A stretch of 64,000 bases of DNA. It comes from an uncultured Clostridia bacterium. GTDB taxonomy: Bacteria; Bacillota; Clostridia; Christensenellales; UBA1750. The notes beneath the pieces are model-generated. The model worked only from the letters and a program-made list of their open reading frames with translations. It was not told the origin of the DNA and did not search any database. Made by a program: the position numbers and the translations under genes. This document shows, piece after piece, positions 2,141 through 51,906 of this stretch. The first letter of the stretch is position 1. Every line of letters starts with the position of its first letter. The DNA is taken from positions 1 to 64,000 of the forward strand of contig CAJFMX010000010.1 in the NCBI GenBank assembly GCA_904393115.1, read 5' to 3'.

Positions 2141-3331
2141 ATGAAGAAATGGATCGCGCTGCTGCTGGGCCTGGTCCTTGCAGCTGCGGGGATTTGCCTG
2201 TTCCTGAGCCGAACCTGGATGTGGGCGGACGTGCCGCGCGTCGTGGCCGGAACGCTCTCCACGGGATCGGTGACCAAGCGGTTCTCCCTGAACGCAGAGC
2301 TCGAGGCGGAGGCCGGGGTGGACGTCGTGCCGGATGAACGGCTCGACGCTTCCCTCATCGTGCAGGAGGTCTGCGTGCGCGTGGGCGATGCGGTCGAGGC
2401 TGGGCAGACGCTGCTGCGATGCCGGCCGAGCGCGGCGCTGACGGAGGAGCTCGCGACGGCGGAACAGGCGCTGGAGCGCGCGCGGCTCTCCGCGCTGGAG
2501 GCGCGCGCGGGCACGGAGGAGGTCTACGCCGCCTACAAGTCCTGGGAGGCGGCGGCAGACGCCGCGCTGCAAACCCCGGCAGACGCCGCGCTCGCCGCGC
2601 AGGAGGCGCGCGCTCGCGCGGAGCTGGATGCGGCCTGCGCATCCGCGGATGCACGGGCGCGGCTCTCTGCGCGCCTGACCGCAGAACGGCGGTTGGAAGC
2701 GGCGCAGGAGGAATGGACGGCGCTGCAAGCGCTGACGGAGCGGGCGCAGGCGCTCACCGCGCCGCAGGATGGCGTTGTGGTCTACCTTGCGGGGGCCGCG
2801 GGCGACGAGATCCGCGCGGACGAGACGGCAGCGACGCTTTCCGCCTCGCCGACGCTCCTGGTCTGTGCGCCGGCAACCGCAGAAGAGGCCGCCTATTTTG
2901 CGACCGCGCAGAGCCTGCTGCGCGCAGACGTGCGCATCGGCCAGGTGAGCGTGCCGGCGGGGGAGCCCTTTGCGGCTGCGCGCGGCGGGCAGCCGCTGCT
3001 CTGCGCGCCGGTGCAGATCCCGGGCGCAGGGGTCGGCACCGCCTGCACGCTGGAGCTGGAGCTGACCAGCGGCGACGGGATGCTGCTGCCGCGCACGGCG
3101 GTGGACGCGCTGCGGGAGGGAACCGTGACCTTTTTTGTGATCGAGGAGCGGTCCGGGTTCTTCGGTCCGGAGAGCTTCGCCGTGCGCGTGGAGGCCGAAG
3201 CGCTCGACTGGGACGAGGAAAACGTGCTCGTGGTCGTGGAGGACGTCTCCACGCACGACCCGATCATCGTGGAAAGCTCTGCGCCGCTTGCGGAGGGGAT
3301 GCAGGTGCTCCTCGTGGAGGAAATCGATTGA
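2141..3331 (+). CDS. Membrane-fusion (HlyD/RND-adaptor-like) protein
   Basis: 396 residues. An N-terminal membrane anchor (MKKWIALLLGLVLAAAGI) is followed by a barrel/lipoyl half (IVQEVCVRVGDAVEAGQTLL), an Ala/Glu-rich coiled-coil hairpin of about 110 residues (ATAEQALERARLSALEARA and onward), the second lipoyl half (LTAPQDGVVVYLAGAAGDEI) and a C-terminal beta region. That is the order seen in periplasmic adaptor proteins. ATG 2141 is preferred over the in-frame GTG 2132 because GGTGGAG lies just before it. No ABC or RND partner is adjacent, so it either serves another pump or has been adopted by this operon. It begins 10 bases after the MalG-type permease gene. Confidence 0.68.
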   Translation: MKKWIALLLGLVLAAAGICLFLSRTWMWADVPRVVAGTLSTGSVTKRFSLNAELEAEAGVDVVPDERLDASLIVQEVCVRVGDAVEAGQTLLRCRPSAALTEELATAEQALERARLSALEARAGTEEVYAAYKSWEAAADAALQTPADAALAAQEARARAELDAACASADARARLSARLTAERRLEAAQEEWTALQALTERAQALTAPQDGVVVYLAGAAGDEIRADETAATLSASPTLLVCAPATAEEAAYFATAQSLLRADVRIGQVSVPAGEPFAAARGGQPLLCAPVQIPGAGVGTACTLELELTSGDGMLLPRTAVDALREGTVTFFVIEERSGFFGPESFAVRVEAEALDWDEENVLVVVEDVSTHDPIIVESSAPLAEGMQVLLVEEID

Positions 3332-15842: not shown

Positions 15843-17618
15843 TTAGATCAAGTGGTATTCCTGCAGCAGTTTCTCCACGTCGGTGCCGGAGACGGCCTTC
15901 AGAACCTCCTTCAGGGCGATCCGCTCCTTCAGCCCAAGCTCCATGTCGGTGAGCTTTCGGCCGTCCCGCAGCTGGACCGCCGCGTTCAGCAGGTCCCGAA
16001 CGTCGTACACGCTGGCCCAGACCTCGGGCACGGCCCGGTCGATGTCCAGCAGGGTATACACGGCCTCCATGCCGGTGCGCATGGAATACTCCGTGGTGAA
16101 GATGGTGTCTCGGGGCGTCTCGGCAAACTGGCCGATAAAGGCGAAATTGACGGCGCCCTTGGGCACCACATCCGGCCGGTCGCCCGCCGCACGCGGCATG
16201 AAGAAGGCGGTGATGTAGGGCATCATGCAGGGGATGGTGTTTGCGCTGCGGGCGGCCAGACCCTCGATCTCGCTTTCGGGGACGCCCAGATGGTAGAGCC
16301 ACTCCATGCAGATCTCCTTTCCGGTGCATTCCCGCATGGGCTTTTTCACGAAATTGCCCGGCCGGTCGCTGAACAGGCCGTAAATCCACCCCACCAGCTG
16401 CCCCTTCGGCTGGCTGCGGAACTGCGGCTGGCGGTTGAAGGTCCAGCTCAAAAGCCAGTTGGAGTCCTTGGCCGTGACGATGCCGCCGGTGACCACCCTG
16501 CCGCTGAAGGGGTCCCGCTGGCAGATCCGCTGGATATAGGGCGGGATCTGATCGTCCAGGGTGGTGACGGTGGCGCTCATCCAGTTGGTCTTTTCCGCGT
16601 CGCTGCAGAACTTGTCCGGGCGGCCGAAGGCGGGGTCCTGCGCGGCGATGCGCCGCCACAGATCCCAGCCGCCCCCCTCCTTGAGGTCGGGGCAGTAGGC
16701 GGCGGGGCGGTCCTGGGAGCCGAGGGCAGAGTTCTCCACGCAGCCGCCGGGGGTGAGGAACAGCAGGTCGTCCTCCGTCAGGTCCAAGGTCTGCTCCCCG
16801 TCCGCGGCGGAGAAGCGGATCTGCCGGGCGGTCTTTTTTCCGCCGGCGATCTCGAAGCGCACGTCCACGACCTTTGTGCGGTAGTGGAACTGCACCCCGG
16901 CCTTCTCCAGGTATTGGACCATGGGCAGAATCATGGACTCATACTGGTTGTAGCGCGTGAAGCGCAGGGCGCGGAAATCCGGCAGGCCGCCGATGTGATG
17001 AATGTAGCGGCGGAGGTAGAGCTTCATCTCCAGGGCGCTGTGCCAATTTTCAAAGGCGAACATGGTGCGCCAATAGAGCCAGAAATTCGAATTCAGCACC
17101 GCGTCGCTGAAGAAGTCCGTGATGGGGCGGTCGTAGAGCGCCTCGTCCGGGGTGAAGAACAGGCGCAGGATCTCCAGGGCGCCCTTGTCGCTCAGGCCGA
17201 ACTTTCCGTCGGTGTGGGCGTCGCGGCCCCGATCCACCGTGGCCCGCATCAGGGAATAGTTGGGGTCGCGCTTGTTCAGGTAGTAGTACTCGTCCAGGAC
17301 GCTTAGGTCCGGGGATTCGATGGAGGGGATGGAGCGGAACAGGTCCCACATCACCTCGAAGTGGTTGTCCATCTCCCGGCCGCCGCGCATCACATAGCCC
17401 AGCCCCGGGTATTCCCAGCCGTCGCAGGCCCCGCCGGGGATGGGGTCCTTCTCGAAGATGTGGATGTGCTTTCCGGGCATCTGCCCATCCCGCAAAAGGT
17501 AGCAGGCCGCCGTCAGGGCGGCAAGGCCCGTGCCCACGATGTAGGCAGACTTGCGCTCCACGCCCTCCGGCTTTTGGGGACGGACGAACGCCTCGTAGTT
17601 TCCGCTGGAATAATACAT
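15843..17618 (-). CDS. ohyA: Oleate hydratase
   Basis: 591 residues, the family's usual length. It adds water to the cis-9 double bond of oleate and related fatty acids, giving 10-hydroxy acids, and uses FAD as a structural cofactor. Visible signs are the N-terminal Rossmann motif AYIVGTGLAALTAACYLLRDG, the family stretch FEKDPIPGGACDGWEYPGLG with RGGREMDNHFEVMWDLF, and FCSDAEKTNWMSATVTT later in the protein. AAGGAGG lies 8 bases before the ATG. A TetR-type regulator lies directly upstream on the same strand. Fatty-acid detoxification is the accepted role in Gram-positive bacteria. Confidence 0.93.
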   Translation of the reverse strand: MYYSSGNYEAFVRPQKPEGVERKSAYIVGTGLAALTAACYLLRDGQMPGKHIHIFEKDPIPGGACDGWEYPGLGYVMRGGREMDNHFEVMWDLFRSIPSIESPDLSVLDEYYYLNKRDPNYSLMRATVDRGRDAHTDGKFGLSDKGALEILRLFFTPDEALYDRPITDFFSDAVLNSNFWLYWRTMFAFENWHSALEMKLYLRRYIHHIGGLPDFRALRFTRYNQYESMILPMVQYLEKAGVQFHYRTKVVDVRFEIAGGKKTARQIRFSAADGEQTLDLTEDDLLFLTPGGCVENSALGSQDRPAAYCPDLKEGGGWDLWRRIAAQDPAFGRPDKFCSDAEKTNWMSATVTTLDDQIPPYIQRICQRDPFSGRVVTGGIVTAKDSNWLLSWTFNRQPQFRSQPKGQLVGWIYGLFSDRPGNFVKKPMRECTGKEICMEWLYHLGVPESEIEGLAARSANTIPCMMPYITAFFMPRAAGDRPDVVPKGAVNFAFIGQFAETPRDTIFTTEYSMRTGMEAVYTLLDIDRAVPEVWASVYDVRDLLNAAVQLRDGRKLTDMELGLKERIALKEVLKAVSGTDVEKLLQEYHLI

Positions 17619-17650
17619 GAAAACGACCTCCTTGCGCTGAAGATGGTCCC

Positions 17651-17679
17651 ATTGTATCCGGCGGAAGCCGCGCCCACAA
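17651..17679 (-). promoter_or_regulatory. Probable promoter of oleate hydratase
   Basis: On the minus strand, TTGTGG (17674-17679) and TACAAT (17651-17656) are separated by 17 bases, about 33 bases before the ohyA start. Confidence 0.55.
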
Positions 17680-17687
17680 TAGACAAG

Positions 17688-17724
17688 GCGCCCCGGATGA
17701 TGAAAGCTTTATCATCTGGGGCGC
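17688..17724 (-). terminator. Long inverted repeat between tetR and ohyA (terminator or operator)
   Basis: GCGCCCC-GATGAT-AAG type arms form a near-perfect hairpin (GCGCCCC at 17688-17694, GGGGCGC at 17718-17724). On the minus strand it follows tetR and is trailed by a T-rich stretch, so it can end the tetR transcript just before the ohyA promoter. An operator role is also possible. Confidence 0.6.
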
Positions 17725-17754
17725 TTTGCGCAGAGGCCCTGTCCGCAGGGCGCG

Positions 17755-18330
17755 TCAAGGGTTCGGAAGGTTCGCCGCCATGTTTCGGATGGCGCCGAGC
17801 AGCTGGCCGTGGCTCATCCGGCTGACCCGGCCCACCACCTGCTCCGGCGCCTCCTTCATGTCGCACCGGACCCAGTCCAGCATGACCCCGACAAAGGCGT
17901 GTTTGTAGAAATTCGTGATGTACGCCTGGTCTTCCTCGGAGATGGCATAGCCGCGGGAGAGCTCCTTCACCACGTCGATCAGCAGGCCGTAGACCACGCG
18001 GCCCAGATAGGCTTCGATCTGCTCCCGCTGAACGGAGTGATAGACCCCCTCGATGAAGGTCCGGTTTTCGATGACAGCGTGGCACAGGGCGGTAAAGCCC
18101 TCCTGCCAGGTCCGGTAGTCCTTCCGGCCCTGGAGGGCGCGGCCGCCCTCCTCCTGGCAGATCCAGTCGATCAGGTCGTAGATGTCCTGGAAGTGGTAGT
18201 AGAAGGTCATGCGATTCATGCCGCAGTGCGCCGTGATGTCGGAAATCGTGATCTTGGAGAGCGGTTTTTGGGCGAGCAGCGCCTTGAGCGACTCGGCCAG
18301 GGCCCGCTTGGTGAGTTGAGACACGGCCAT
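17755..18330 (-). CDS. TetR-family transcriptional regulator (DhaS-like)
   Basis: 191 residues from ATG 18330; GTG at 18324 is an alternative, better spaced from AAAGGAGGG. The N-terminal helix-turn-helix is ISDITAHCGMNRMTFYYHFQDIYDLIDWI, cited here as its core NRMTFYYHF; the C-terminal half is helical and of the type seen in DhaS-like regulators. Position suggests control of oleate hydratase, probably in response to a fatty acid; the neighbouring inverted repeat may be its site. Both points are inference. Confidence 0.82.
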   Translation of the reverse strand: MAVSQLTKRALAESLKALLAQKPLSKITISDITAHCGMNRMTFYYHFQDIYDLIDWICQEEGGRALQGRKDYRTWQEGFTALCHAVIENRTFIEGVYHSVQREQIEAYLGRVVYGLLIDVVKELSRGYAISEEDQAYITNFYKHAFVGVMLDWVRCDMKEAPEQVVGRVSRMSHGQLLGAIRNMAANLPNP

Positions 18331-18411
18331 CCCTCCTTTCGCCAAGTCCAGTATAGCACAGCGCGGCGGTAAGGAAAAGGGAGACAAGCGCGCGGTTTAA
18401 CACGCATATGG

Positions 18412-18440
18412 TTGACAGTTCGCGTTTCTCATGATAAAAT
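18412..18440 (+). promoter_or_regulatory. Strong promoter of the polyamine operon leader
   Basis: TTGACA (18412-18417), a 17-base spacer and TAAAAT (18435-18440). Expected transcription start is near 18447, about 415 bases before the speA start codon. Confidence 0.8.
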
Positions 18441-18446
18441 GCAGAA

Positions 18447-18836
18447 AGTTTGAAAGGGTCTAGATTGCAGAGTCTTTTCAAAGCAATTATCTGTGCCCCC
18501 CTCCGGGCGGAGGGAAGCCACTGCCGAATGGTAGCCTTGTGCTGCCTTATTGATTGAGTTAAGAGCTCAAATTTTATAAGTTGGTTCCTTCATAACCAAA
18601 ATGCGCCTGTGCGCAGACTTGTGAAACGGTCAATAAGAGTAGTAAAAGTAGAATTGCTATATAGACTCTGATCACCCCGTCCCGCTTGAAACCGAATCTC
18701 TCCCCGCCGCGATGCCGCCCCCTGTCCCTTAGCAGGGGAGGGCGCCGCTGCGCAGGCCGTCTCCACGCTGCCAGGGCCGGGAGCTTGTTCAAGAGGAACG
18801 CGCAAGTTGTGCAGGAGCACGGCTTGCGCGTTTTTT
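18447..18836 (+). ncRNA. Candidate structured leader RNA of the polyamine operon, class not recognised
   Basis: The transcript from 18412-18440 has about 390 untranslated bases before a terminator. Helices visible by eye: TTTGAAAGGGT (18449-18459) with GTCTTTTCAAA (18472-18482), 11 pairs including wobbles; CCCTCC/GGAGGG near 18499-18514; TTGGTT/AACCAA near 18581-18599; TGCGC/GCGCA near 18602-18615; CCCCTG/CAGGGG near 18720-18738; and the terminator stem at 18797-18832. A leader with a terminator just ahead of the first gene is the layout of riboswitches and attenuators. No consensus of a known class (T-box, SAM, lysine, guanidine, cobalamin) could be matched. A separate small RNA such as a 6S-like RNA in the first 150 bases is an alternative. 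Confidence 0.45.
18797..18836 (+). terminator. Terminator in the leader, 26 bases before speA
   Basis: AACGCGCAAG (18797-18806) pairs perfectly with CTTGCGCGTT (18823-18832), followed by a T tract to 18836. It sits immediately upstream of the speA RBS, so readthrough must be controlled or a second promoter must exist. Confidence 0.8.
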
Positions 18837-18861
18837 GTTGTGTTGTGGCCGAAAGGAGGGA

Positions 18862-20328
18862 ATGGAATTGCAAAACCGTCGAATGCAGCTGGACCAAAGG
18901 CGCGCCCCCATCTATGAAGCGCTGGAAAACTTCCGGCGCATGCGGGTGGTGCCCTTTGACGTGCCCGGCCACAAGCATGGCCGGGGCAACCCGGAGCTGA
19001 CGGCGTTCCTCGGGCAGCAGTGCGTGGGCGTGGACGTCAACAGCATGAAGCCCCTGGACAACCTCTGCCACCCCGTCTCCGTCATCCAAGAGGCGGAGGA
19101 GCTGGCGGCCGACGCCTTTGGCGCGGCCCACGCCTTCCTCATGGTGGGCGGGACGACCAGCTCCGTGCAGAGCATGGTCCTGACGGCCTGCAAGCGCGGG
19201 GACGAGATCATCCTGCCCCGCAACGTGCACAGGAGCGTCATCAACGCGCTGGTGCTCTGCGGGGCCGTGCCGGTCTACGTGAACCCGGAGGTCAACCAGA
19301 GGCTGGGCATCTCCCTGGGGATGCGGCGCGAGGAGGTGGCCAAGGCCATCGCCGAGCACCCGAAGGCCGTGGCCGTCCTGGTCAACAACCCCACCTACTA
19401 CGGCGTGTGCAGCGACCTGCGCGCCATCGTGCAGATGGCCCACAGCGCCGGGATGCTGTGCCTGGCGGACGAGGCGCACGGCACCCACTTTTACTTTGGC
19501 GGCGGCCTTCCGGTCTCCGCCATGGCCGCGGGGGCGGACATGGCCGCGGTCTCCATGCACAAGAGCGGCGGGAGCCTGACGCAGTCCAGCCTGCTGCTGG
19601 TCGGGCCGAACGTCCACGCCGGGTACGTGCGCCAGATCATCAACCTCACCCAGACCACCTCGGGCAGCTACCTGCTGCTCTCCAGCCTGGACATCAGCCG
19701 GCGGAACCTCGCCCTGCGCGGCCGCGCGATGTTCCACCAGGTGGCGGACATGGCCGAATACGCCCGGCAGGAGATCAACGCCGTGGGCGGCTACTACGCC
19801 TTTGGCCGGGAGATCATGAACGGCAACTCCGTGTTCGACTTTGACAGCACGAAGCTCAGCGTCCACACGCGCGACATCGGCCTTGCCGGCATCGAGGTCT
19901 ACGACATCCTGCGCGACGAGTACGACATCCAGATCGAATTCGGGGACATCGGCAACATCCTGGCCTATCTCTCCATGGGCGACCGGCCCCAGGAGCTGGA
20001 GCGCCTCGTCAGCGCCCTGGCCGAGATCCGCCGCCGCTACCAGCGGGACAGCGCGGGCCTGCTCAGCCAGGAGTACATTGCCCCGGAGGTCGTCATCAGC
20101 CCGCAGGACGCCTTTTACGCCGAGAAGGTCAGCCTGCCGCTGGAGGAGTGCGTCGGGCACGTGTGCAGCGAATTCGTCATGTGCTACCCGCCCGGCATCC
20201 CGATCCTGGCGCCGGGCGAGCGCATCACAAAGGAGATCCTGGAGCACATCCAGTACGCGAAGGAAAAGGGATGCAGCATGACCGGGCCCGAGGACCCGGA
20301 GATCCACCGCATCAACGTTTTGACCTGA
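18862..20328 (+). CDS. speA: Arginine decarboxylase, Orn/Lys/Arg decarboxylase class I fold
   Basis: 488 residues from ATG 18862 (AAAGGAGGG upstream but only 2 bases away; TTG 18868 is better spaced). PLP enzyme of the class found in Bacillus SpeA: VVPFDVPGHKHGRGNPEL near the N-terminus, FLMVGGTTSSVQSM for the phosphate loop, DEAHGTHFYF for the Asp that contacts PLP, and SMHKSGGSLTQSS with the Schiff-base Lys near residue 233. Arginine rather than lysine or ornithine is inferred from the agmatinase and spermidine synthase genes that follow. It makes agmatine, first step to putrescine. Confidence 0.85.
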   Translation: MELQNRRMQLDQRRAPIYEALENFRRMRVVPFDVPGHKHGRGNPELTAFLGQQCVGVDVNSMKPLDNLCHPVSVIQEAEELAADAFGAAHAFLMVGGTTSSVQSMVLTACKRGDEIILPRNVHRSVINALVLCGAVPVYVNPEVNQRLGISLGMRREEVAKAIAEHPKAVAVLVNNPTYYGVCSDLRAIVQMAHSAGMLCLADEAHGTHFYFGGGLPVSAMAAGADMAAVSMHKSGGSLTQSSLLLVGPNVHAGYVRQIINLTQTTSGSYLLLSSLDISRRNLALRGRAMFHQVADMAEYARQEINAVGGYYAFGREIMNGNSVFDFDSTKLSVHTRDIGLAGIEVYDILRDEYDIQIEFGDIGNILAYLSMGDRPQELERLVSALAEIRRRYQRDSAGLLSQEYIAPEVVISPQDAFYAEKVSLPLEECVGHVCSEFVMCYPPGIPILAPGERITKEILEHIQYAKEKGCSMTGPEDPEIHRINVLT

Positions 20329-20341
20329 GAGGGGGAAGGAT

Positions 20342-21196
20342 ATGGAACTGTGGTTCAGCGAATTTCACACGCCCGACGTGCAGCACAGCATCCGGGTGAC
20401 GAGGCACCTGTACTCCAAGCGGAGCGAGTATCAGCAGATCGACATCCTGGAGACGCCGGAGTTTGGCCGGGTCCTGACGCTGGATGGGAACGTGATGCTC
20501 ACCGAGCGGGACGAGTTCATCTACGATGAGATGATCACCCACGTGCCCATGGCGGTCCACACCGGCATCCGGGACGTGCTGGTCATCGGCGCGGGGGACG
20601 GCGGCGTCGTGCGGGAGCTGACGCGCTACGACCGCGTGGAGCGCATCGACCTTGTCGAGATGGATCCCATGGTCGTGGAGGCCTGCCGCACGTATCTGCC
20701 CAGCAACGCCTGCCGCATGGACGACCGCCGCGTCCACATCCACTTTGAGAACGCGCTCAAGTTCATCCGGCGGTGCGAGGCGGAGTACGACCTGATCATC
20801 GTGGACTCCACCGACCCCTTCGGCCCCTCGGAGGGGCTGTTCACGCGCGAGTTCTACGGCAACTGCCACAACGCCCTGCGCGAGGACGGCATCATGGTCA
20901 ACCAGCAGGGCAGCCCCTTCTACGCCGAGGACGCCAAGGCCATGCAGCGCAGCCACAAGAACATCGTCAAGACCTTCCCCATCAGCCGGGTCTACCAGGC
21001 GCACATCCCCACCTATGCCGCGGGGTACTGGCTCTTCGGCTTTGCCAGCAAGAAGTATCACCCCATCGACGACCTGGACGCCCAGGCCTGGAGCAAGCTG
21101 AACCTGCACACGCGCTATTACACGCCGCGCCTGCACATCGGCGCCTTCTACCTGCCCGCGTTCCTGGAGGAGATGCTCGAGGAGGTGGAGGAATGA
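20342..21196 (+). CDS. speE: Polyamine aminopropyltransferase (spermidine synthase)
   Basis: 284 residues. It transfers aminopropyl from decarboxylated S-adenosylmethionine to putrescine (or agmatine in some relatives). Family motifs: LDGNVMLTERDEFIYDEM, the nucleotide-binding VIGAGDGGVVRELTRYD, and IVDSTDPFGPSEGLF with the catalytic Asp. GAGGGGGAAGG precedes the ATG, and the last bases overlap the agmatinase start. No S-adenosylmethionine decarboxylase gene is in the operon, so the donor must come from elsewhere. Confidence 0.92.
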   Translation: MELWFSEFHTPDVQHSIRVTRHLYSKRSEYQQIDILETPEFGRVLTLDGNVMLTERDEFIYDEMITHVPMAVHTGIRDVLVIGAGDGGVVRELTRYDRVERIDLVEMDPMVVEACRTYLPSNACRMDDRRVHIHFENALKFIRRCEAEYDLIIVDSTDPFGPSEGLFTREFYGNCHNALREDGIMVNQQGSPFYAEDAKAMQRSHKNIVKTFPISRVYQAHIPTYAAGYWLFGFASKKYHPIDDLDAQAWSKLNLHTRYYTPRLHIGAFYLPAFLEEMLEEVEE

Positions 21197-22065
21197 TGCG
21201 CCCGAACATCGAGACGTTCCTCGGCTGCGACAGCGACTACGAGCGCGCGTCCGTCGTGCTCTACGGCGCGCCGTTTGACTCCACGACCAGCTTCCGGCCG
21301 GGTGCGCGCTTCGGCCCCTCGGCCATGCGGCACGAGAGCTTCGGCCTGGAGACGTACAGCCCCTACCAGGACCGGGACCTTGGCGACTGCGCGGTCTTTG
21401 ACAGCGGGGACCTGGAGCTCTGCTTTGGCAGCGCGGAGAGGGCGCTTGCGGACATCGAGGCGCGGGCGGAGGAGATCCTGCGGGATGGGAAGTTCCCCCT
21501 GCTGCTGGGCGGCGAGCACCTGGTGACGCTCGGCGCGGTGCGCGCGCTCGCGCGGCGGCACCCGGACCTGCACATCGTCCACTTCGACGCCCACGCGGAC
21601 CTGCGCGACGACTACCTGGGCGCAAAGCTCAGCCACGCCTGCGTGCTCCGGCGCTGTCACGAGATCCTGGGAGACGGGCGCATCCACCAGTTCTGCATCC
21701 GCAGCGGGGAGAGGGAGGAGTTCCGCTTCGCAAAGGCGCACACGGACCTGCACCCCTTTTCCTTCGACGGCCTTGCGCAGACCGTGGAGGCGCTGATCGC
21801 GCAGGGCGCGCCCGTGTACCTGACGATCGACCTGGACTGCCTGGACCCCTCGGCCTTCCCCGGCACGGGCACGCCGGAGGCCGGCGGCGTCACCTTCCTC
21901 CAACTCCTGGAGGCCGTGCGCCGCACCTGCACCACGCGCATCGTCGGCGCGGACGTAAACGAATTGGCCCCGGGCCTGGACGCCAGCGGCGTGTCCACGG
22001 CCACGGCCTGCAAGGTTCTGCGGGAGCTCCTGCTGGCGCTGCCGGCGGGGAAGCCCGCACTCTAA
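21193..22065 (+). CDS. speB: Agmatinase (ureohydrolase family)
   Basis: 290 residues (ATG 21193 or 21196; the two are adjacent and the first overlaps the speE stop). It hydrolyses agmatine to putrescine and urea with a dimanganese centre. The metal ligands are visible: GGEHLVTLG, HFDAHADLRDDY and TIDLDCLDPSAFPGTGTPE. Its place after speA and speE supports agmatinase over arginase or guanidinobutyrase. Confidence 0.9.
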   Translation: MMRPNIETFLGCDSDYERASVVLYGAPFDSTTSFRPGARFGPSAMRHESFGLETYSPYQDRDLGDCAVFDSGDLELCFGSAERALADIEARAEEILRDGKFPLLLGGEHLVTLGAVRALARRHPDLHIVHFDAHADLRDDYLGAKLSHACVLRRCHEILGDGRIHQFCIRSGEREEFRFAKAHTDLHPFSFDGLAQTVEALIAQGAPVYLTIDLDCLDPSAFPGTGTPEAGGVTFLQLLEAVRRTCTTRIVGADVNELAPGLDASGVSTATACKVLRELLLALPAGKPAL

Positions 22066-22096: not shown

Positions 22097-23356
22097 ATGA
22101 GCAAGGTTCTCGTCATCGGCTGCGGCGGCGTCGCCTCCGTCGCCATCCAGAAGTGCTGCCAGGTCAGCGAGGTGTTCACCGACCTGTGCATCGCCAGCCG
22201 CACAAAGTCCAAGTGCGACCGCCTCGCCGCGGAGCTTGCGGGCAAGACCGCGACCCGCATCACCGCCGCCCAGGTCGACGCCAACGACGTGCAGCAGGTC
22301 GTCGACCTCATCCGCAGCTACGGCCCGGACCTGGTGATGAACATCGCCCTGCCCTACCAGGACCTGACCATCATGGAGGCCTGCCTCACCTGCGGCGTCC
22401 ACTACCTGGACACCGCCAATTACGAGCCGGAGGACACCAACGACCCCGCCTGGCGCGCGGTCTACGAGGCGCGCTGCAAGGAGGCCGGCTTCTCCGCGTA
22501 CTTCGACTACAGCTGGCAGTGGGCCTACAAGAAGCGCTTTGCGGAGGCGGGCCTTACCGCCCTGCTCGGCTGCGGCTTTGACCCCGGCGTCACCCAGGCC
22601 TACTGCGCCTACGCCAAGAAGCACGAGTTCGACACCATCGACACCATCGACATCCTGGACTGCAACGGCGGCGACCACGGCTATCCCTTTGCCACCAACT
22701 TCAACCCGGAGGTCAACCTGCGCGAGGTTTCCGCGCCCGGCAGCTACTGGGAGGACGGCCATTGGATCGAGGTCGAACCCATGAGCATCCACCGCGAGTA
22801 CGACTTTGACCAGGTCGGCCGCAAGGACATGTACCTGCTCCACCACGAGGAGATCGAGAGCCTGGCCAAGAACCTGCCCGAGGTGCGGCGCATCCGCTTC
22901 TTCATGACGTTCGGGCAGAGCTATCTGACCCACATGAAGTGCCTGGAGAACGTGGGGATGCTCTCCACCGAGCCCGTGGAGTTCGAGGGCCACAAGATCG
23001 TGCCCATCCAGTTCCTCAAGGCCCTGCTGCCCGACCCGGCCAGCCTCGGCCCGCGCACGAAGGGCAAGACCAACATCGGCTGCATCTTCACCGGCAAGAA
23101 GGACGGCAAGGACAAGACCTACTACATCTACAACGTCTGCGACCACCAGGCCTGCTACCGCGAGGTCGGCAGCCAGGCCATCAGCTACACCACGGGCGTG
23201 CCCGCCATGTGCGCCGCGCTGCTGCTCCTGCAGGGGACCTGGCGCAGGCCCGGCGTCTACACCGTCGAGGAGCTCGACCCCGATCCCTTCCTGGAGGCGC
23301 TGGACCGCTACGGCCTGCCAAAGAGCGAGTCCCGCGCGCCGGCGCTGGTGGACTGA
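22097..23356 (+). CDS. Carboxynorspermidine/carboxyspermidine dehydrogenase (saccharopine dehydrogenase fold)
   Basis: 419 residues from ATG 22097 with AAAGGAG upstream. It condenses putrescine or diaminopropane with aspartate semialdehyde, using NADPH, to give carboxyspermidine or carboxynorspermidine. The N-terminal dinucleotide motif is VLVIGCGGVASVAIQKC, followed by family-typical LDTANYEPED and GCGFDPGVTQAYCAYA. The substrate assignment rests on the next gene, nspC, and on the putrescine-forming genes upstream. Relatives are often labelled saccharopine dehydrogenase; lysine metabolism genes are absent here. Confidence 0.88.
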   Translation: MSKVLVIGCGGVASVAIQKCCQVSEVFTDLCIASRTKSKCDRLAAELAGKTATRITAAQVDANDVQQVVDLIRSYGPDLVMNIALPYQDLTIMEACLTCGVHYLDTANYEPEDTNDPAWRAVYEARCKEAGFSAYFDYSWQWAYKKRFAEAGLTALLGCGFDPGVTQAYCAYAKKHEFDTIDTIDILDCNGGDHGYPFATNFNPEVNLREVSAPGSYWEDGHWIEVEPMSIHREYDFDQVGRKDMYLLHHEEIESLAKNLPEVRRIRFFMTFGQSYLTHMKCLENVGMLSTEPVEFEGHKIVPIQFLKALLPDPASLGPRTKGKTNIGCIFTGKKDGKDKTYYIYNVCDHQACYREVGSQAISYTTGVPAMCAALLLLQGTWRRPGVYTVEELDPDPFLEALDRYGLPKSESRAPALVD

Positions 23357-24579
23357 TGCGGCCCGACGCGCGCCCGCCCTTTGCGGGCCTTGCCGGGAGA
23401 GATCCGCGGGCGCTGTTCTCCGCCCTGCCCACGCCCTGCTATGTGCTGGACGAGGCCGCCCTGCGAAAAAACGGCGAGATCCTGCGGGACCTCGCTAAGC
23501 GCACGGGCTGTCGCGTGCTCCTGGCGCAGAAGGCGTTCTCCAACTTCAACCTCTACCCGGTCCTTGCGCCGTACCTTGCCGGCACGGAGGCCAGCGGCCT
23601 GTTCGAGGCGCGCCTTGGGGCGGAGGAGATGCCGGGCAAGGAAGTGCACGTCTTCTGCGCGGCCTACCGCGAGGAGGAGTTTGCGGATATTTTGCGGTAC
23701 GCGGACCACATCGTCTTCAACTCCCCGCGCCAGCTCGCCAAGTTCGGCCCCGCGGCCAGGCGCGCGGGCAAGAGCCTGGGCCTGCGCCTGAACCCGGAGT
23801 GCTCTACGCAAGGAACCCACGAGATCTACGACCCCTGCGCCCCGGGCAGCCGCCTGGGCACGACGCGCGCCCAGTGGGACGCGCAGATGACGCCGGAGCT
23901 GCTGAACCTGCTGGACGGCCTGCACTTCCACACGCTCTGCGAGCAGGATTCCGACGCGCTCGAGCAGACGCTCGAGGCGGTCGCCGCGCGCTTTGGCGAC
24001 GTGCTGCCGCGGATGCAGTGGCTGAACTTTGGCGGCGGCCACCACATCACCCGGCCGGGATACGACCTGGAGCGCCTCGTGCGCTGCATCCGCCGCGCGC
24101 AGGCGGAGTGGGGCGTGACGGTCTACCTCGAGCCGGGCGAGGCCTGCGCGCTCAACGCGGGGTACCTCGCAAGCCGCGTGCTGGACGTCCTGCAAAATGG
24201 AGAGACGCGCATCGCCGTCCTGGACGCCAGCGCCGCCTGCCACATGCCGGACGTGCTGGAGATGCCCTACCGCCCGCCCCTCTACGGCGCGGAGGCGGCT
24301 GACGATGCGGGGGCCGAACCTCGGCCGGGATGTGAGGTCTACCGCCTGGCCGGGCCGACGTGCTTGGCCGGGGACGTGATCGGGGACTACGGCTTCGACG
24401 CGCCCCTTGCGGAGGGGGACCTGCTGCTCTTCGGAGACATGGCCATCTACACCACCTGCAAGAACAACACCTTCAACGGCATGCCCCTGCCCGCCATCTA
24501 CGCCCTGCGCGAGGGCGGGGCGCTGGAGCCGCTGCGCACCTTCGGTTACGAGGACTTCAAGACCCGCCTGGGCACGTGA
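23356..24579 (+). CDS. nspC: Carboxynorspermidine/carboxyspermidine decarboxylase
   Basis: 407 residues, alanine-racemase-fold PLP decarboxylase. It decarboxylates carboxyspermidine to spermidine (or the nor form). Motifs: LPTPCYVLDEAALRKN, VLLAQKAFSNFNLYP with the PLP Lys, GLHFHTLCEQ, WLNFGGGHHI and LEPGEACALNAGYL. The ATG overlaps the upstream TGA. Together with the dehydrogenase it provides a spermidine route that does not use decarboxylated SAM, alongside SpeE. Confidence 0.92.
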   Translation: MRPDARPPFAGLAGRDPRALFSALPTPCYVLDEAALRKNGEILRDLAKRTGCRVLLAQKAFSNFNLYPVLAPYLAGTEASGLFEARLGAEEMPGKEVHVFCAAYREEEFADILRYADHIVFNSPRQLAKFGPAARRAGKSLGLRLNPECSTQGTHEIYDPCAPGSRLGTTRAQWDAQMTPELLNLLDGLHFHTLCEQDSDALEQTLEAVAARFGDVLPRMQWLNFGGGHHITRPGYDLERLVRCIRRAQAEWGVTVYLEPGEACALNAGYLASRVLDVLQNGETRIAVLDASAACHMPDVLEMPYRPPLYGAEAADDAGAEPRPGCEVYRLAGPTCLAGDVIGDYGFDAPLAEGDLLLFGDMAIYTTCKNNTFNGMPLPAIYALREGGALEPLRTFGYEDFKTRLGT

Positions 24580-50227: not shown

Positions 50228-50270
50228 AAAAAAGCGGACCGCCCTGCGCAGGGCGGTCCGCCGTTTTTTT
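50228..50270. terminator. Bidirectional terminator
   Basis: A perfect 28-base palindrome (50234-50261) with AAAAAA on the left and TTTTTTT on the right, serving the ABC operon (+) and the AGCS gene (-). Confidence 0.92.
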
Positions 50271-51697
50271 CACTTGTGCGCCGTGCGCCGGGGGAGGCGC
50301 CGGTCGCGGGGCGCGTGGACGATGGAGAGCACCGTCCCGGTCAGGGCGAAGAGCGCGATGGCGTTGGGGAGCACCATCAGGTTGTTGAACATGTCGGTCA
50401 GCTCCCAGACCAGGTCGTTGGACACCAGCGTCCCCAGGAACAGGAACGCCAGCGCCAGGACGGAATAGACCTTCACGGACTTCTTGCCAAAGAGGTAGAT
50501 CACGTTGATCTTGCCGAAGAGGTTCCAGCCCAGCACCGTGGAGAACGCGAAGAAGAACAGGCAGACCGCCACAAAGGCCGCCCCGAGCGTTTCACCCATC
50601 ACCGAACCGAACGCCGCCTGCGCCAGGTTTGCGCTGTTGAGCGTCTCGGTGATTGCGCCGGTGTAGCCCTGGGCCAGCGGCCCGTCCGAAACGTAGAGCG
50701 TGGAGAGGATCACCAGCGCATTGAGCGTCAGGACCACGAACGTGTCGATGAACACGCCGATCATGGCCACGACGCCCTGGTCGTGGGGATCGGTGACGTT
50801 GGCCTGGGCGTGCGCGTGGGGCGTGGAGCCCATGCCCGCCTCGTTGGAGAAGAGGCCGCGCTTTGCGCCCTGGGTGATGGCCTGCTTCAGGGCGTAGCCC
50901 AGGCTGCCGCCCACGATGGCCTGCGGCTGGAAGGCGTAGCGGAAGATCAGGCCGAAGGTCTCCGGCAGGTAGCGAATCCGCACCGCGAGCACCGCCAGCG
51001 CGCCCACCAGGAAGACCAGCGCCATGACCGGCACGAGCTTTTCCGTGACCGCGGCAAGGCGCTGGATGCCGCCCAGGAAGATGACGGCGCACACGATCAC
51101 CAGCACAACGCCCACGATCCAGCTCGGGATGCCAAAGGCCGTCGAGAACGTCGAGCCGATGGAGTTCGACTGCACCATGCAGCCCATGAAGCCCAGCGCC
51201 AGGATGATCGCCACCGCGAAGAACCCGGCCAGGAACTTGCCGAACCGCCCCGGGAAGGCGGTCGTGATGTAGTAGACCGGGCCGCCGTGGATGGCGCCGT
51301 CCGCGTCCCGGCGGCGGGTCTTGACCGCCAGCGTCGCCTCGGCGTAGATCGTCGCCATGCCGAAGAAGGCGATCACCCACATCCAGAAGATCGCGCCCGG
51401 GCCGCCGATCAGGATCGCGCCGGAGGCGCCGACGATGTTGCCCGTGCCCACCTGCGCGGCGATGGCCGTGGCCAGCGCCTGGAAGGAGCTCATGCCGCTC
51501 TTGTGGCGCTTGCCGCGCAGCGTCAGGCTGCCGAAGACCCGGCGCATCCCCTCGCCAAAGCAGCGCACCTGCACAAAGCGCGTGCGGATGGTGTACCACA
51601 GCCCCACGGCGATGAGGAGGATGACCAGGATGTAGCTGGACAGGTAGTTGTTGATGCTGCTGACCACTTCCAGCAGCGCAGATTGCAGGGACGCCAT
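50270..51697 (-). CDS. Alanine/glycine:cation symporter (AGCS family)
   Basis: 475 residues from ATG 51697; the frame extends further upstream but through the riboswitch, so this start is used. About 11 helices. Family signatures: SSFQALATAIAAQVGTGNI and GAKRGLFSNEAGMGSTPHA. It takes up alanine or glycine with Na+ or H+. The glycine riboswitch in its leader argues for glycine. AGAGAG lies about 10 bases before the start. Confidence 0.92.
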   Translation of the reverse strand: MASLQSALLEVVSSINNYLSSYILVILLIAVGLWYTIRTRFVQVRCFGEGMRRVFGSLTLRGKRHKSGMSSFQALATAIAAQVGTGNIVGASGAILIGGPGAIFWMWVIAFFGMATIYAEATLAVKTRRRDADGAIHGGPVYYITTAFPGRFGKFLAGFFAVAIILALGFMGCMVQSNSIGSTFSTAFGIPSWIVGVVLVIVCAVIFLGGIQRLAAVTEKLVPVMALVFLVGALAVLAVRIRYLPETFGLIFRYAFQPQAIVGGSLGYALKQAITQGAKRGLFSNEAGMGSTPHAHAQANVTDPHDQGVVAMIGVFIDTFVVLTLNALVILSTLYVSDGPLAQGYTGAITETLNSANLAQAAFGSVMGETLGAAFVAVCLFFFAFSTVLGWNLFGKINVIYLFGKKSVKVYSVLALAFLFLGTLVSNDLVWELTDMFNNLMVLPNAIALFALTGTVLSIVHAPRDRRLPRRTAHK

Positions 51698-51739
51698 TGC
51701 CGTCAACTCTCTTTCTCCACTTCCGCCCGAAAAAGCGCG

Positions 51740-51775
51740 AAAAAAACCGGCCCGGGGAGAGGCCCCACGGTCCGG
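51740..51775 (-). terminator. Expression-platform terminator of the glycine riboswitch
   Basis: On the minus strand a GC-rich hairpin (51747-51775) is followed by seven T, between the aptamer and the symporter start. Confidence 0.8.
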
Positions 51776-51828
51776 ACAACTGACAGGAACGTCCCCAGCC
51801 CCCGCGCAGGGGACCGGAAACCCGGTCT

Positions 51829-51906
51829 GCTCTGTCCTTTTGCCTGAGAGATTCAGCCCAAACGGGCCTTGCACCTTCGGCACTCACCAGCGAGATTCTC
51901 CAGAGC
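51829..51906 (-). promoter_or_regulatory. Glycine riboswitch (gcvT element), single aptamer
   Basis: On the minus strand P1 GCTCTG (51901-51906) pairs with CAGAGC (51829-51834). The conserved core reads GCCGAAGGTGCAA and, near the 3' side, AATCTCTCAGGCAAAAGG, both hallmarks of the glycine aptamer. Only one aptamer is evident; most glycine riboswitches are tandem. It precedes a glycine/alanine symporter gene. Confidence 0.9.

Follow-up and report, generated by a model that had tools for sequence, protein, structure and literature searches.

A widely conserved leader RNA ahead of a clostridial polyamine operon, probably a polyamine-sensing transcriptional OFF switch

The leader of the speA-speE-speB-CASDH-nspC operon in an uncultured Clostridia bacterium is probably a riboswitch-type transcriptional OFF switch that senses a polyamine, most likely spermidine. 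By computation, this leader, which lies in the 64,000-nucleotide stretch of DNA that was analysed (the window), has a structured core, an association with polyamine genes, an intrinsic terminator and a co-varying antiterminator that excludes two of the core helices (P7 and P9). Sequence comparisons indicate a structured RNA class that is widely conserved across Clostridia and Bacilli and is located, in Firmicutes, almost only upstream of polyamine synthesis or uptake genes, and the window copy would very probably serve as a sensor that halts transcription when polyamine is high. The locus is laid out as follows.

18412-18440 (+): sigma-70 promoter, TTGACA-17-TAAAAT with an extended -10 TG (sequence and promoter scan)
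18793-18836 (+): intrinsic terminator, with a 20-pair stem, a loop of 4 and a T tract
18855-18859 (+): ribosome-binding site GGAGG (sequence)
18862-20328 (+): speA, Orn/Lys/Arg decarboxylase, the operon's first gene
20342-21196 (+): speE, polyamine aminopropyltransferase
21193-22065 (+): speB, agmatinase
22100-23356 (+): CASDH, carboxy(nor)spermidine synthase/dehydrogenase-like, under the NCBIfam cut-off for carboxynorspermidine synthase
23350-24579 (+): nspC, carboxynorspermidine decarboxylase

The promoter that a sequence-only reading had placed at 18412-18440 is present with both hexamers and the extended TG, and is the sole sigma-70-like site within 17500-19500 (0.4 expected); transcription of the leader is expected, from this promoter, to start near 18447-18448, with ~390 nt between the promoter and the terminator end. 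The terminator claimed shortly before speA was likewise recovered, its end at 18836 lying 26 nt upstream of the ATG at 18862, and the scan found no second promoter-like site between these two points, where a transcription start would have spoken against a regulatory leader. Folding of 18440-18861 was more stable than that of dinucleotide-shuffled sequences (-171.1 versus -140.8 +/- 6.4 kcal/mol; z -4.75, 0/100 shuffles). The operon adjoins a divergent TetR-family regulator gene (17755-18387, -), and an MCRA-family (oleate hydratase-like) gene (15843-17618, -) lies beside it. Elsewhere in the window, an ordinary glycine riboswitch aptamer (RF00504, 51822-51913, -, 57.8 bits) was found directly upstream of a frame (50270-51883, -) that resembles a gene for an AGCS/AlsT sodium:alanine symporter.

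In the comparative structure, P0 is followed by P1 and P2, by P4-P9 and then by the near-invariant GAGUAGUAAAAGUA, and the unconstrained minimum-energy fold of the window leader reproduced the comparative P1-P9. The elements are as follows.

18449-18482 (+): P0 hairpin, 18449-18457 with 18474-18482, containing the P1 5' strand
18468-18670 (+): P1 closing helix, CAGAGTC 18468-18474 with GACTCTG 18664-18670 (comparative and minimum-energy fold)
18483-18657 (+): P2 helix, GCAATT 18483-18488 with AATTGC 18652-18657, stacked on P1 (covariation)
18499-18514 (+): GC hairpin CCCTCC-GGGC-GGAGGG, at the place of P3 in relatives (sequence and relatives)
18522-18671 (+): conserved core of ~150 nt, matched by covariance model R1
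18530-18546 (+): P4 hairpin, GGTAGC/GCTGCC, 5/5 scored pairs changed on both sides
18547-18636 (+): P5, TTATTGA 18547-18553 with TCAATAA 18630-18636, almost invariant (98.9% of cells paired)
18554-18570 (+): P6 hairpin, TTGAGT/GCTCAA, 5/5 scored pairs changed on both sides
18573-18625 (+): P7, TTTATAAGT 18573-18581 with ACTTGTGAA 18617-18625, the 3' strand also being the antiterminator target
18583-18597 (+): P8 hairpin, GGTT/AACC, 2 pairs changed on both sides
18602-18615 (+): P9 hairpin, TGCGC/GCGCA, variable among lineages, its 3' strand also in the antiterminator
18637-18651 (+): near-invariant single-stranded GAGTAGTAAAAGTAG (alignment)

The hairpin noted earlier right after the start is real and corresponds to P0, which, judged by eye and not by statistics, is kept with altered sequence in relatives; P0 and P1 are either alternatives or pseudoknotted together. 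The several further hairpins of the same reading exist as helices, most of them as parts of one multibranched domain closed by 18468-18474/18664-18670. Compensatory changes support the core helices: alignment of relatives' leaders, a check that the sequence-only reading had put forward, revealed 12 core pairs with double changes and 51 such cells (14.6 in shuffled alignments; 0/500 shuffles on any measure), and sliding the partner columns by 1-3 lowered pairing from 96% to 33-50%. This covariation comes from P4, P6 and some of P8; P5 and P7 hardly vary and thus contribute little. For P2, with 5' strands anchored via flanking sequence and not by complementarity, matched partners paired better than permuted ones (0/5000 permutations; 38/5000 on distinct sequence pairs). 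Two further pairings were set aside: a speculative pseudoknot that would join the P8 loop ACUUU to the invariant AAAGU (85% of cells pairable, no covariation), and a 3' hairpin AGAGU/ACUCU proposed by RNAalifold, both strands of which are invariant and which is inseparable from P1 by covariation.

Missing conservation in relatives would have counted against a regulatory role; the opposite was found, with strong conservation across families. Positions 18518-18671 matched nine other genomes among 60 relatives at 74-85% identity (blastn), eight of which belong to different families within the order, and such conservation of the core outside the genus indicates that it is not a chance fold. A 3'-end pattern scanned over one genome per species recovered at least 118 stretches, from Clostridia, from some Bacilli and from a small number of Bacteroidota metagenome bins. 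The covariance model R1, built after a 45-sequence alignment of the core, matched the window core at full length (153.7 bits, E 1.5e-30) as a single copy in its genome, and had matches in 40/291 genomes sampled from the class, 25/399 from the phylum and 26/271 from a second class, probably Bacilli. The leader is therefore what is expected of a riboswitch in one respect, a conserved structured RNA in a 5' UTR. Copies on Bacteroidota-labelled contigs (Prevotellaceae, Salinivirgaceae) were located at L018 158-312 (-), L047 5675-5829 and L023 1566-1705; those in L023 and L047 precede speA genes that group with a Ruminococcus, and the Bacteroidota copies may reflect horizontal transfer or metagenome binning error. 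Single arms are missing from some relatives (P6 in L107, at 397-531, and in L111; P9 in L119) or shortened (P8/P9 in L020), natural deletions that would be helpful in locating the minimal binding core.

The genes downstream were almost exclusively polyamine genes. Among the matches listed, 99 of the 127 pattern- or blast-found copies precede synthesis genes (speD 51, speA 43, CASDH 5), 5 have insufficient downstream DNA, and the remaining 23 comprise 22 before a PotA-like ATPase gene, in most cases with permease genes next, and one other, so that polyamine synthesis or potABCD uptake genes lie downstream in 121/122 copies (PotA being above the NCBIfam cut-off on two loci and assigned by sequence similarity on the others). 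All 72 of the model-found loci listed are likewise before speA, speD, CASDH or PotA (29 + 21 + 22 across the three samples), a set that overlaps slightly with the pattern-found copies and is not wholly independent of them. The sole relative before a non-polyamine gene, L036 2010-2124 from an Erysipelotrichaceae bin, precedes a C39-peptidase-like lipoprotein gene; a second, weak RNA match lies at 3037-3208 of the same locus.

Of 118 leaders with a located gene start, 115 carried an intrinsic terminator of dG -6 or lower, compared with 74/354 mononucleotide shuffles. The 5' arm of this terminator can base-pair with both the P9 3' strand and the conserved ACUUG(UG) that forms the P7 3' strand, and a pairing scan along the leader peaked at this P9-3'/ACUUG segment. 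The two halves of the predicted antiterminator in the window are as follows.

18611-18623 (+): 5' half, GCGCA, a bulged G and ACTTGTG, pairing with 18801-18812 (dG -14.9 kcal/mol)
18801-18812 (+): 3' half, CGCAAGTTGTGC, identical with the terminator 5' arm (pairing scan)

Leaders paired better with their own terminator arms than with swapped ones (mean -10.74 versus -8.47 +/- 0.21 kcal/mol; 0/20000 permutations), also among 48 non-redundant loci (-11.09 versus -8.39; 0/20000) and within gene groups (0/5000), in permutation tests that remove shared ancestry only in part. The window's own arm ranks 13th of 108 for the window site, so the arm covariation belongs to the set as a whole and not to the window copy. 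Because the terminator 5' arm co-varies with the P9 and P7 3' strands, the antiterminator and P7/P9 are mutually exclusive, which gives the leader a second hallmark of a riboswitch, an expression platform with mutually exclusive folds; judged by comparative sequence evidence, the layout is that of a transcriptional OFF switch. The attenuator or riboswitch first suggested from the letters of the window thus finds support in conservation, covariation, polyamine-gene association, near-universal terminators and a co-varying antiterminator. A constitutive partial terminator that senses nothing, beside a conserved element unrelated to it, would leave the antiterminator signal (0/20000 permutations) purposeless, and we give it a very slim chance.

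Leader peptides offer another route to attenuation. Upstream of speF in enterobacteria, ornithine is sensed by a leader peptide, and a ribosome-stalling attenuator would be compatible with the gene set found here; the window even contains, by chance, a 7-codon ATG frame that runs over P9 into ACTTGTGA. Yet a start codon with an RBS-like site and at least 8 codons occurred in only 12/108 leaders, scattered in position, compared with 75/118 in the gene-start control. With no conserved leader ORF in the 108 leaders, leader-peptide attenuation was rejected as extremely improbable.

Searches of the window leader against Rfam, at gathering and permissive thresholds, returned chance matches only and thus no unrelated separate RNA, the outcome that had been proposed as a test of the regulatory reading. 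Identity with SAM-I, SAM-variant or T-box RNAs was rejected for lack of a match (RF00162 and other SAM families gave none at E up to 10), and the window had no match to speF or other polyamine-motif Rfam families. A raiA-type identity was also discarded: the raiA RNA in L003 (RF03072, 930-1129, -, 155 bits) lies outside the leader locus, ~400 nt before the polyamine leader, oriented divergently and unrelated to it. In relatives, Rfam did match RF02440, 'SpF59 sRNA (ldcC RNA)', whose 54 nt correspond to a 5' subdomain, P3. At the membership cut-off of 37.2 bits on the 54-nt covariance model, RF02440 was absent from the window, L001, L002 and the whole window genome; above it, matches occurred in 33/291, 17/399 and 21/271 genomes of the three surveys, every one directly 5' of an R1 core match. 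R1 occurred without RF02440 in 7, 8 and 5 genomes (class, phylum and second-class samples, respectively), and core-only relatives had no Rfam match, permissive search included. Since every above-cut-off RF02440 match in these surveys lies beside R1, which is also found alone, RF02440 represents one optional arm within a larger RNA, and the window copy has both marks of this full-length class, the core and a location upstream of a polyamine gene with a terminator in between.

The P3 arm gives way to a plain GC hairpin in the window (18499-18514) and in L002. The window's SpeA falls, on a tree of that protein, among relatives that carry P3 (Neglectibacter L048, L065), which indicates that P3 was lost in the window copy; the automatic no-P3 label on that tree also covers upstream-truncated loci and diverged P3 copies. 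This loss of the sole subdomain that Rfam models explains why the window is invisible to Rfam and why the sequence-only reading could not match the leader to a known class. As P3 is present in most relatives, the window copy might have an altered function, and it is a ready-made deletion variant with which to locate the binding site.

The sRNA typing of RF02440 in Rfam raises the alternative that the terminated transcript (~18448-18836) works in trans as an independent small RNA. The Streptococcus pneumoniae member, F59/srn235, located between SP0915 and SP0916, was listed among sRNAs, with a fitness defect in the lung (PMC3395615), and remains a putative sRNA in a 2025 list (PMC12323649). Against this stand the near-universal position at polyamine genes even though the first gene varies (speD, speA, CASDH or PotA) and a co-varying antiterminator that is required solely for cis control. 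We consider an independent small RNA highly unlikely; an additional trans role on top of cis control could exist.

In the polyamine-sensing switch that we favour, polymerase would first transcribe the compact multibranched P1-P9 domain. At high polyamine, most likely spermidine, the ligand would bind this domain and stabilize P7 and P9, leaving the downstream hairpin with a free 5' arm, so that the terminator would form and transcription would stop at ~18836. At low polyamine, the P9 3' strand and ACUUGUG (18611-18623) would instead pair with 18801-18812, allowing readthrough into speA. Direct ligand binding, the ligand's identity and the direction of the switch are what we infer here. From gene association, spermidine is the most likely signal, favoured as the compound common to the SpeD/SpeE-type and carboxyspermidine routes of synthesis and to import, with putrescine and norspermidine as alternatives. 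Among the signals suggested previously, a polyamine is favoured. Arginine, agmatine and guanidine are less likely, since potABCD uptake and the carboxyspermidine branch, which follow the RNA in many relatives, do not have these compounds in common. AdoMet decarboxylase (PF02675) had no match in the window genome (98% complete), which makes dcSAM an unlikely signal there. The operon thus combines speE with CASDH and nspC in a genome lacking such a match, which suggests a route to spermidine that does not need decarboxylated SAM, or else a carboxyaminopropyltransferase-like activity for SpeE.

A polyamine-responsive RNA-binding protein acting on the core could set the same choice between terminator and antiterminator, and the comparative data would look the same for a protein as for a ligand, with the same genes and terminator layout expected. 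However, ~150 nt with many positions that are unpaired and invariant across Clostridia and Bacilli resembles an aptamer and not a short protein site, and an unsystematic look at the neighbourhoods noticed no RNA-binding protein gene as a constant neighbour; we judge such a protein-dependent attenuator unlikely, and direct sensing by the RNA remains our preferred reading.

The class spans polyamine synthesis and uptake and makes leaders available for testing by the hundred, in Bacilli and in gut bacteria as common as Faecalibacterium, Blautia, Mediterraneibacter and Neglectibacter, and pneumococcal F59/srn235, with its link to lung fitness, would move from trans sRNA to cis-regulatory leader. 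Partial recognition of the class certainly came earlier, as the Rfam alias 'ldcC RNA' implies that someone had already linked the RNA to a decarboxylase gene. For the full class, we found no description in the open literature, the scope of our search, nor in the main texts of the 26- and 50-genome discovery papers, a C. difficile review, a human-microbiome RNA paper and a premature-terminator paper; a closed-access description is possible.

Among known systems, RF02440/F59 belongs to the same RNA class as the window core but represents the 54-nt optional P3 alone, typed as an sRNA, with the 150-nt core outside the Rfam model. The speF and odc1/potE motifs are also candidate RNA elements near polyamine genes, and by description differ in gene association or organisms (alphaproteobacteria for speF) and in structure (PMC11477304, PMC8632094). 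RNA sensing of polyamines, long anticipated, was first shown in 2023, for a rare SAM-I derivative with 13 examples, in genera including Oceanobacillus, Bacillus, Trichococcus and Lysinibacillus (Salvail et al. 2023, PMC10853860). That spermidine riboswitch resembles the window RNA in preceding polyamine synthesis genes, in being a terminating OFF switch, as proposed here, and in occurring in Gram-positives (PMC10853860), but it has the four-stem SAM-I fold, whereas the window RNA has a different architecture and belongs to a class with a far wider distribution. On balance, we lean towards regarding this class as a second natural spermidine or polyamine riboswitch, structurally independent of the SAM-I-derived one and far commoner (in gut Clostridia, Bacilli and probably streptococci), whose core went undescribed because Rfam holds only its optional arm, as an sRNA.
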